A stretch of DNA of 37,309 nucleotides from contig VGFC01000018.1 in the NCBI GenBank assembly GCA_016869045.1, positions 1 to 37,309 on the forward strand, written 5' to 3'. The notes beneath the pieces are model-generated. The model saw only the letters and a program-made list of their open reading frames with translations. It did no database searches and was not told the origin of the DNA. Shown here one piece after another: positions 14,753 through 17,512 of the stretch; within the stretch, counting starts at the first letter, position 1, and each line of letters opens with the position of its first letter. Source of the stretch: Armatimonadota bacterium. GTDB taxonomy: Bacteria > Armatimonadota > Zipacnadia > Zipacnadales > VGFC01. A program made the translations under genes and the position numbers.

Positions 14753-15118
14753 TCAGTACGGATCACAGAGGCGTTCTTCGGTGACCTCCCACTCTCCTCC
14801 TGCCAACTTCCGGCTGAAGCAGGATCGATAGCCCTCATGGCACGCCGCGCCGGTCTGCTCCACTTCCAGCAGCAGCGCATCGCCGTCACAGTCGCGGCGG
14901 AGGGAGACGACTCCCTGCACATTGCCCGAGGTCGCACCCTTCACCCAGAACTGCTGCCTGGATCGGGACCAGTAGGTCACGTTGCCCGTCTCGACGGTCC
15001 GCCGGACGGCCTCGCGGTTCATGTGGGCGACCATCAGGACCGCCCGCGAGGCCGCGTCAGTCACGATCACCGTGACGAGGCCGTCGGCATCATACTTCAG
15101 GTCATCGAGGTATGCCAT
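14753..15118 (-). CDS. hisI: Phosphoribosyl-AMP cyclohydrolase
   Basis: The protein has 121 residues, starting at the ATG at 15118 with GGAGG ten bases upstream. It catalyses the third step of histidine synthesis, opening the purine ring of phosphoribosyl-AMP. The family's features are all present: MVAHMNREAVRRTVETGNVTYWSRSRQQFWVKG, then RRDCDGDALLLEVEQTG and ACHEGYRSCF. The Cys of DCDGD and the two Cys of the final motif are the zinc ligands, and the Asp pair binds magnesium. There is no fused HisE (phosphoribosyl-ATP pyrophosphatase) domain, so hisE must be elsewhere. It follows hisF after 20 bp. Confidence 0.95.
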   Translation of the reverse strand: MAYLDDLKYDADGLVTVIVTDAASRAVLMVAHMNREAVRRTVETGNVTYWSRSRQQFWVKGATSGNVQGVVSLRRDCDGDALLLEVEQTGAACHEGYRSCFSRKLAGGEWEVTEERLCDPY

Positions 15119-15138
15119 ACTGTCCCCGCCTCCGCGCG

Positions 15139-15942
15139 TCACAGTCGCACCGGGATTCCGCACTCGCGCAGGCCCTCCTTGACGGCTCGCACCGACGTCT
15201 CCCGGAAGTGGAAGATGCTCGCCGCCAGCACCGCGTCGGCCTTGCCGTACATCAGGGCCTCCGCCATGTGCTCGACCGTACCCGCGCCGCCCGAGGCGAT
15301 GACGGGAACCCTCACCCGCTCGGCGATGCGGCGGAGCAGCTCGATATCATAGCCCGCCTTCGTCCCGTCCGCATCCATGCTGGTCACGAGCAGCTCGCCG
15401 GCGCCCCGCTCCTCGGCCTCGGTGACCCACTCCAGCGCATCGACCTCCGTCGGCTCGTGCCCGCCGTGCGTCCAGACCTTCCACTCGATCTCCTCGTCCG
15501 GCGCCGGCCCCAGACGCGAGTCGTCGCGCCCCGCCTTCGGCACGCGCTTGGCATCCACCGCCACCACGATGCACTGGCTCCCGAAGCTCTCCGCGCCCGC
15601 GTTGATGAGGTCGGGCGTCAGGATCGAGGCCGTCATGATGCTGACCTTGTCAGCGCCCGCTTTGGTGATCTCGCGGATGTCCTCCACGCTGCGAATGCCG
15701 CCCCCGACGGTGAACGGGATGAACACCTGCTCCGCCGTCCGCCGGACGATGTCCAGCATGATCTGCCGATGGTCCTTGGAGGCTGTGATGTCCAGGAACA
15801 CCAACTCGTCGGCCATCTCCTGGTCGTACCACGCCGCCTGCTCCACTGGATCGCCCGCGTCCCGATGGTCGATGTACTTCACACCCTTGACCACGCGCCC
15901 GTCGGTCACGTCCAGGCAGGGGATGATGCGTCTGGTCAGCAT
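15139..15942 (-). CDS. hisF: Imidazole glycerol phosphate synthase, cyclase subunit
   Basis: A 267-residue TIM-barrel protein beginning [20 protein letters not shown], which contains the first catalytic Asp. The second catalytic Asp is in [10 protein letters not shown]. The loops [20 protein letters not shown] and [13 protein letters not shown] bind the phosphate groups. With HisH it converts PRFAR and glutamine-derived ammonia to IGP and AICAR. A stretch after AVDAKR ([19 protein letters not shown]) is longer than in the best-known homologues but in a surface loop. An AGAGGG ribosome site lies close upstream. The left repeat of the RAYT element begins only 22 bp before the start codon, separating hisF from hisA. 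Confidence 0.97.
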
Positions 15943-15964
15943 GTGCGTGCCCTCTGGTCGTCAA

Positions 15965-16016
15965 GGACTGTCCAAGTTTCGGTCCCGCTTGCGGGACCGA
16001 GACGCATGGACTGTCC
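15965..16016. repeat. Left REP-like repeat of the RAYT element
   Basis: The 52-bp repeat starts and ends with GGACTGTCC (15965-15973, 16008-16016), itself a 4-bp palindrome around one base. Between these lies a perfect hairpin with arms TCGGTCCCGC (15979-15988) and GCGGGACCGA (15991-16000) and a TT loop. Its sequence is the near-exact reverse complement of the copy at 16713-16765. Confidence 0.9.
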
Positions 16017-16036
16017 GCTGTGGTTGGAGCGACGTG

Positions 16037-16681
16037 TCACGACCGACGTTCGTCCGGTGCGCGGCCTGCATCCTCGGCGGCGCTGCGCCTCAACCAGTCA
16101 TCCCCGTACGGCGATCCCGTCCGCGTGTGCTCCCGGAGCCTGTTCAGCATGCACTCGTCCTCCTCGCTCACGAGCCAGGAAGCCCAGTCGTCCACCCTCG
16201 CGAGCAGCGGCAGGCCACTCGCGAGAACCGGATCGGGTCGAAGGCCGCAGTGCGCGGGTGCACTGCTCCAGGCGTAGGACTCGGCGCGCTCGACGAGGTG
16301 CGCACGCACTGGGTTCCGCTCCACATATCGCACGGCCTCCCAGAGGTGCGCGTCGTCGAGCGGGCAGGAGTAGTACCTCCCCTGCCACAGGTGGCCGTCG
16401 CCGCCGCGTTCCTCGTTGCACGCCTGAGCGTGCCTCGTGTGGACGACGCGGCCTACGTTAGAGAGCGCCGTCTCGTTCTCCGGGACGGCGATGAGATGAA
16501 CGTGGTTGCTCATCAGGCAGTAGGCCCAGATGCGGAGATCATACTTGCGTGCTGCTTCGGCCAGCCACACGAGGTAGCGTTGGAAGTGGCGGTCAGATAG
16601 GAACACGTCCTCGCGGTGGTGGCCGCGATGGGTCATGTGGTGCGGGAAGCCGGGAAGGACGATCCGGGCCGTGCGAGACAT
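16037..16681 (-). CDS. REP-associated tyrosine transposase (RAYT, Y1/HUH family)
   Basis: The protein has 214 residues from the ATG at 16681 ([20 protein letters not shown]). Another in-frame ATG at 16723 lies inside the right repeat and would add 14 residues; it is less likely. The HUH metal site is LMSNHVHLI (His60, His62), and the candidate nucleophilic Tyr is in WQGRYYSC (Tyr103/104). The intervening pattern [20 protein letters not shown] is typical of TnpA_REP proteins. These act on REP hairpins as single strands, nicking beside them; most are domesticated single copies. All key residues are intact, and the flanking repeats are well preserved, so the element may be recent. Base composition is like its neighbours. 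Confidence 0.93.
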
Positions 16682-16712
16682 GCGCGTCGCCTTTGTGGTG
16701 ACATGGAAGAGG

Positions 16713-16765
16713 GGACAGTCCATGCGTTCCGGTCCCGCCAGGCGGGACCGGAACTTGGACAGTCC
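16713..16765. repeat. Right REP-like repeat of the RAYT element
   Basis: The 53-bp repeat starts and ends with GGACAGTCC (16713-16721, 16757-16765), the reverse complement of the motif in the left copy. The central hairpin has 13-bp perfect arms (16727-16739 and 16741-16753) around a single A. The reverse complement matches the left repeat at nearly every position. The repeat ends 6 bp before the hisA stop codon. Confidence 0.9.
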
Positions 16766-16771
16766 CTGGCC

Positions 16772-17512
16772 CTACCGCGCCGCCCTGCTTAGTGCGCCGG
16801 CCGCAATGGCCTCCCGCAGCGTGAACTTGCCCTCATAGAGTGCGCGGCCGACGATGCAACTCGTCACACCCAGCGGCTCCAACGTCGCGAGTGCGCGGAT
16901 GTCCTCCAGCGAGGAGATGCCGCCGGAGGCCGTGACCTCGATGTGCAACGCCTCGGCCATCGTGCGCATGGCGCGGAGGTTCGGCCCGGTCAGCACGCCG
17001 TCGGTGGCGATGTCGGTGGCGATGATCCGTTGAACGCCGAGGGCCTCCGTCTGCCGTGCGAGGTCTGTCGCGAGGACGCTGGTGTCCTCGGTCCAGCCTT
17101 GGACGGCCACCCGGCCATCTCGCGCGTCGATGCCCGCCACGATGGCCTCGCTGAACTCCTTCACCGCCGCCTGCAGCATCGCCGGGTCGCGCAGCGCCGC
17201 CGTCCCCAGGATCGCCCACCGAGCGCCCAGGCCCAGCACCTGGCGCACATCCTCGATGGTGCGGATGCCTCCCCCGACCTCCACCGGAACCTTCGTCGCC
17301 TCGCAGATGGCTTTGAGCGCCCCCGCATTCGCGCGCTCGCCGGACACCGCGCCGTCGAGGTCAACGACATGGATGATCTCCGCGCCGCCGTCGGCCCAGC
17401 GCCGCGCCATCTCCGCTGGGTCGTCGGAGTAGACGGTCTTGCGCTGCATGTCGCCTTGCGCGAGGCGCACGCAGCAGCCCTTGGACAGATCGATGGCCGG
17501 GATGACGATCAC
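16772..17512 (-). CDS. hisA: Phosphoribosylformimino-AICAR-phosphate isomerase
   Basis: A 246-residue TIM barrel with MIVIPAIDLSKGCCVRL at its start (catalytic Asp8), VEVGGGIRTIEDV, AILGTAAL, VAGIDARDGRVAVQGW (second catalytic Asp) and VTASGGISSLEDI. It catalyses the Amadori rearrangement of ProFAR to PRFAR, the substrate of HisF/HisH. The start codon overlaps the stop of hisH (17509-17512, ATGA), implying translational coupling. The gene ends immediately before the right repeat of the RAYT element, so that insertion separates it from hisF. Confidence 0.96.
   Translation of the reverse strand: MIVIPAIDLSKGCCVRLAQGDMQRKTVYSDDPAEMARRWADGGAEIIHVVDLDGAVSGERANAGALKAICEATKVPVEVGGGIRTIEDVRQVLGLGARWAILGTAALRDPAMLQAAVKEFSEAIVAGIDARDGRVAVQGWTEDTSVLATDLARQTEALGVQRIIATDIATDGVLTGPNLRAMRTMAEALHIEVTASGGISSLEDIRALATLEPLGVTSCIVGRALYEGKFTLREAIAAGALSRAAR

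Follow-up and report, generated by a model that had tools for sequence, protein, structure and literature searches.

A REP/RAYT-like transposase element between hisA and hisF of an Armatimonadota bacterium, and a genome-wide family of related hairpins

A transposase gene between inverted hairpins in the his operon

The window, a stretch of 37,309 nucleotides from an Armatimonadota bacterium, carries on its minus strand hisB, hisH, hisA, a transposase gene, hisF and hisI, in that order (Table 1). The whole element spans 15965-16765 and consists of a hairpin, the transposase gene (16681-16037) and an inverted hairpin, inserted into a hisA-hisF spacer of roughly 28 bp. An earlier note on this DNA had described a transposase gene flanked by two inverted repeats between hisA and hisF, with hisB, hisH and hisA joined by 4-bp overlaps, and our analysis bore out its coordinates, repeats, gene order and overlaps. 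The upstream hairpin has its tail towards the transposase gene and its head 6 bp (16766-16771) past the hisA stop, and the head of the downstream hairpin lies 22 bp (15943-15964) ahead of the hisF ATG; these distances, and the reading that the insertion left both genes whole, were also as the note had them. The earlier note had also suggested that the hairpins may weaken transcription of hisF and hisI; a scan of the hisA-hisF interval returned no promoter-like and no intrinsic terminator-like site, and the RNA folds predicted there are very stable. In the fold predicted for minus-strand RNA from 15940-16020, the AGAGGG of hisF pairs with repeat bases, and an effect on hisF translation is possible.

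Table 1. Features of the element and of the adjoining his genes (feature, positions in the window, strand, remarks)
Feature	Positions	Strand	Remarks
Upstream type A hairpin	16713..16765	-	GGACTGTCC-AA-[GTTCCGGTCCCGCC T GGCGGGACCGGAAC]-GCAT-GGACTGTCC
RAYT/TIRYT-type Y1 HUH transposase (candidate class)	16037..16681	-	214 aa; PF01797, NF047646, profile, fold
Downstream type A hairpin, inverted	15965..16016	+	GGACTGTCC-AA-[GTTTCGGTCCCGC TT GCGGGACCGAGAC]-GCAT-GGACTGTCC
hisA, intact	16772..17512	-	
hisF, intact	15139..15942	-	AGAGGG ribosome-binding-like site still present upstream
hisI	14753..15163	-	longest ORF overlaps hisF; alternative possible start 15118

The two flanking hairpins match each other in inverted orientation over 30-32 nt (88-90%), and their DNA folding scored z = -7.7 and -5.0 against shuffled sequences. 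In the predicted fold the feet pair as a lower stem with a central T-T mismatch, followed by a small asymmetric internal loop and an inner stem of 12-13 bp. The earlier note had called the repeats near-identical palindromes; they are indeed inverted hairpins framed by GGACTGTCC, but they are not identical, since some paired positions of the inner stem carry different bases in the two copies.

The transposase was absent from all 17 relatives in which hisA lies directly upstream of hisF (0/17), and the gap between the two genes was mostly under 150 bp in these genomes. In a genome of the same genus the gap holds a Phd-like/ParE pair (ParE 3.6e-10; antitoxin match below the Pfam cut-off), and in two genomes of another family it holds HTH_17 + PIN pairs; the cassettes lie at L107:1021-1468, L123:2323-3105 and L134:711-1499. 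Because the junctions of relatives lack the transposase and some carry other cassettes, the insertion is lineage-specific and the gap is a recurrent landing place: at this tolerant junction of a biosynthetic operon, insertion of small selfish cassettes (RAYT, Phd/ParE-like, HTH+PIN) has happened repeatedly.

A hairpin family with constant feet and variable inner stems

The pattern GGACTGTCC-N18..47-GGACTGTCC gave about 101 matches in the genome (G000), a count that includes a few overlaps between neighbouring units, compared to 0 for the reversed control. The search for further copies that the earlier note had proposed thus uncovered a family of about 100 hairpins, almost all intergenic. Sorting of 100 listed places yielded 56 of type A, with AA ahead of the stem and GCAT, GCA or GCAC behind it; 33 of type B, with no 5' linker and a single A behind the stem; six of a CAGTTTTCGGC type, near-identical to one another; and five unassigned. 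In 1.47 Mb read directly, where 11% of bases are intergenic according to gene calls from a simple codon-usage script, 50 of 51 sampled copies were intergenic, 10 of them in convergent gaps vs 3 in divergent gaps; the sample was partly picked for holding copies and therefore gives their context, saying nothing on copy density. The copies are thus short, palindromic, high in number and intergenic, as REP sequences are. The only sampled copy predicted within a gene (L044:19432-19479) belongs to the nearly invariant CAGTTTTCGGC group, some members of which (L045, L096) have an additional outer inverted repeat. An Rfam search with the hairpins gave no match, and among the matches listed in a literature search for GGACTGTCC there were only unrelated primer or microRNA sequences.

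Two 9-bp feet and the small asymmetric internal loop are constant across the family, and the inner stem varies in sequence while remaining paired. In type A, 642/662 stem cells were Watson-Crick (97%) and 50/56 stems were distinct; among distinct copies 571/590 cells paired, compared to 449 +/- 6 (maximum 468) in 1000 shuffles of the 3' letters. Type B behaved similarly (298/311 cells vs 195 +/- 6 in shuffles). At position 4 of the type A stem, T-A occurred 33 times, C-G 15, G-C 4 and A-T 3. Few copies were added when one mismatch per foot was allowed, which suggests a much tighter constraint on the feet than on the stem, although such a search would miss any copy in which both feet are badly worn. 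Complementary mutations in REPs were already noted by Nunvar et al. (PMC2817692) and alternative complementary stem residues by Di Nocera et al. (PMC3733652); covariation is therefore known as a phenomenon, and it is its extent in these hairpins that is striking.

We considered whether the pairing could have arisen by arm-to-arm templated repair of quasi-palindromes instead of selection, in which case the covariation would say little on recognition. The presence of all four pair types at position 4, and a share of mismatched cells of only about 3%, fit such repair. It should, however, erase the T-T centre of the feet and the AA/GCA loop, both of which stay constant and mismatched, and we regard this explanation as improbable, although for the inner stem taken by itself repair may have played a part.

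Two further ideas were rejected: a stem sequence specific to the transposase, as the two hairpins of the single his-junction element already differ, and a recent burst of hairpin copying, as 50/56 type A inner stems are distinct. The earlier note had taken the good preservation of the repeats as a sign of recent arrival. The insertion itself is specific to this lineage, but the repeats form a diverse family of seemingly old age; nearly every inner stem differs, the flanking pair included, so what is preserved reflects a constraint on hairpin shape and on the feet.

The hairpins are polar. A degenerate [GT][CT][AC]G precedes the head, its last G present in 46/48 type A and B copies, and C[CT]TGTTGCC follows the tail; a strict GTAG/GTGG 5' tetranucleotide was not found, the his-junction copies having CCAG and TCAA. 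Gene ends are nearer to heads than to tails (median 24.5 bp vs 66 bp, p about 0.02). Three tail-to-tail hairpin pairs with a 49-bp spacer were found (C140, C485, C124). Tandem hairpin arrays occur in the same genome (C115, L030:3624-3937) and in a same-genus genome, G001 (C381, L086, 791-1425), with periods of about 89 bp and 156 bp. Two genomes from another family of the order (G028 and G004) carry a different GGACTGTCC-framed repeat (CCTCGTGATACGCGGCTGGTGGAGG) with a GGGACTGTCCCTTNAGGGACTGTCC end. Beyond the his junction, none of the hairpins showed transposition or had an empty-site pair.

Another reading is that the hairpins are kept mainly as RNA elements, for 3' end protection or attenuation, with the transposase a passenger or former mobiliser. 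Copies sit downstream of genes, convergent gaps are over-represented, and the RNA past hisA is predicted to fold very stably (-46.8 kcal/mol, z = -5.6). Such a role, however, needs neither constant feet, nor DNA polarity, nor hairpins beside transposase genes; the hairpins occur in both orientations relative to flanking genes and have no terminator-like T-run, and the near-mismatches of type A (G-T 8, C-A 8) show no G-U preference, although type B has 9 G-T vs 0 C-A. On balance it is an unlikely main reason for the family.

The transposase and its relatives

The reading frame of the transposase is open to 16723, with a possible start inside the repeat (ATGGACTGTCC); the ATG at 16681 is the likelier start because homology begins there. 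The HUH motif (H60-V-H62) and the tyrosine motif (Y119-x3-N123-P124), which the earlier note had reported as intact, are present, and H60, H62, Y119 and N123 were invariant in 21 homologues. Pfam returned PF01797 (Transposase IS200-like, 2.7e-11) and no other domain, and in particular no HTH/DnaA-type (Bac_DnaA_C-like) C-terminal domain; a helical C-terminal extension was predicted in the structure model. The NCBIfam model for REP-associated tyrosine transposases (NF047646) scored 75.1 bits (E 5.1e-21), just under its cut-off of 80. A single-sequence search of the PDB with the transposase gave no match, nor did a PHROGs search. With a profile of 21 sequences, the first match was the E. coli TnpA_REP structure 4ER8 (9.4e-7), which was also the best fold match of the AlphaFold2 model (pLDDT 86; 9.9e-10), ahead of IS608 and ISDra2, with an identity of only about 21% in the fold alignment. 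The note's assignment of a RAYT-type transposase with inverted REP-like hairpins therefore gains from profile, predicted fold and the high-copy family together.

An insertion of the ordinary IS200/IS605 kind, with no relation to REPs, would account for the PF01797 domain, but it fits poorly with the Y-x3-NP signature, with 4ER8 and not IS200/IS608 as best match, with the C-terminal extension and with the presence of a single intact copy and about 100 hairpins that carry no gene. We consider it highly improbable.

The his-junction gene has a type A hairpin on both sides. G001 has a frameshifted RAYT with 70% identity at another locus, and upstream of it lies a type A hairpin. The C8 RAYT (L042:18682-19245; 58% identity), in which a conserved Trp codon is replaced in frame by TGA, has type B hairpins on both sides. 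From the frameshift and the TGA, some RAYT copies appear dead. None of these three genes contradicts coevolution of hairpin type and RAYT, and three are few. By NG86, dN/dS came to about 0.17 in the comparison with the G001 copy and to 0.23 in that with the C8 paralogue, dS being near saturation. More distant paralogues (C140, C183; L034:10306-10812, L040:1316-1942) have their own, different flanking palindromes (GGGGACAGCAT...ATGCTGTCCCC and GGGGACACCAT...ATGGTGTCCCC; TAGGGACAGGCCCCAATTT...).

Relatives of the transposase with 32-58% identity are patchily distributed among Hydrogenedentota, Nitrospirae, Deltaproteobacteria, WOR-3, Mariprofundus and others. Inverted GGGACA ends were found on both sides in 32/40 relatives in other phyla, compared to 2/241 control windows, and strict GGGGWSAS on both sides in 8/40. 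On the plus strand, the foot at 16713 reads GGACAGTCC after GG, giving the GGGGWSAS-like GGGGACAG, so that the motif stands at one end of the element. Ends of the GGGGWSAS type have been described for TIRYT transposases (PMC3733652), mostly of subclass 2.1 (PMC6006769). The earlier note's term REP-like holds as regards the high-copy inverted hairpins, but there is no strict GTAG and the motif matches TIRYT GGGGWSAS ends. Because 4ER8 is the best match and the relatives carry GGGACA ends, we read the element as REP/RAYT-like within the TIRYT branch, its terminal repeat apparently turned into a REP-type hairpin population; the placement in that branch is one we infer from the motif of the ends.

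Candidate mode of recognition and comparison with known systems

Taken together, we favour, with a probability of roughly three in four, a REP/RAYT-type transposase-bearing element of the TIRYT (GGGGWSAS-end) Y1 branch that moves hairpins by clamp-and-loop recognition. The transposase would recognise its own hairpins in single-stranded form by two features, the constant lower clamp, in which GGACTGTCC pairs with GGACTGTCC on either side of the T-T mismatch, and the asymmetric AA/GCA(T) internal loop; the inner stem would be sensed for its pairing, its sequence not being read. Cleavage would take place near the feet, and single hairpins or tail-to-tail pairs would be moved between genes, hairpin copies elsewhere presumably being mobilised by the his-junction protein. 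The his-junction copy is the full unit (hairpin, gene, inverted hairpin), put into the hisA-hisF spacer. A bolder version, which we put forward as tentative and rather doubtful, is that the family is a living intermediate from TIRYT to REP, with GGGACAG duplicated as two feet round a hairpin, a clamp-and-loop signal and an inner stem read by shape alone.

These observations bear on the origin of REP populations and on which part of the hairpin a transposase reads. One genome here offers a ready-made mutational series, in which the clamp is constant and about 50 different inner stems occur naturally. The observations also link REP-like hairpins to TIR-flanked transposases; near subclass 2.1 genes, REP-like sequences had not been found before (PMC6006769).

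A close likeness in layout is to TIRYT/TIRtron elements (Di Nocera 2013, PMC3733652; Quentin 2018, PMC6006769), which likewise have a Y1 transposase between GGGGWSAS-like inverted repeats and whose TIR copies too can form repeat families, as singles, dimers or clusters. The TIR families of those papers are only moderately abundant, whereas here the ends are stable hairpins whose flank is polar and tag-like, in about 100 copies, and subclass 2.1 proteins have a C-terminal HTH/Bac_DnaA_C-like extension where only PF01797 was found here. Tail-to-tail hairpin pairs with a short spacer are likewise reported for REPINs (Bertels and Rainey 2011, PMC3116915); unlike these, most copies here are singlets, and the spacer ends are CTTGT...ACAAG.

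With the E. coli-type REPtron (RAYT group 2 / subclass 2.2; yafM, PDB 4ER8) the element shares inverted hairpins around the gene, a hairpin of lower stem, mismatch loop and upper stem, high-copy intergenic repeats and Y-x3-NP. The loop has AA opposite GC in E. coli, a mismatch that the E. coli enzyme requires (PMC8266576), vs AA opposite GCA/GCAT here, a likeness that may hint at shared recognition, as a lead short of proof. The present family differs from the E. coli REPtron in having a degenerate [GT][CT][AC]G in place of GTAG, palindromic 9-bp feet that stand as direct repeats, and an upper stem that is far more variable.
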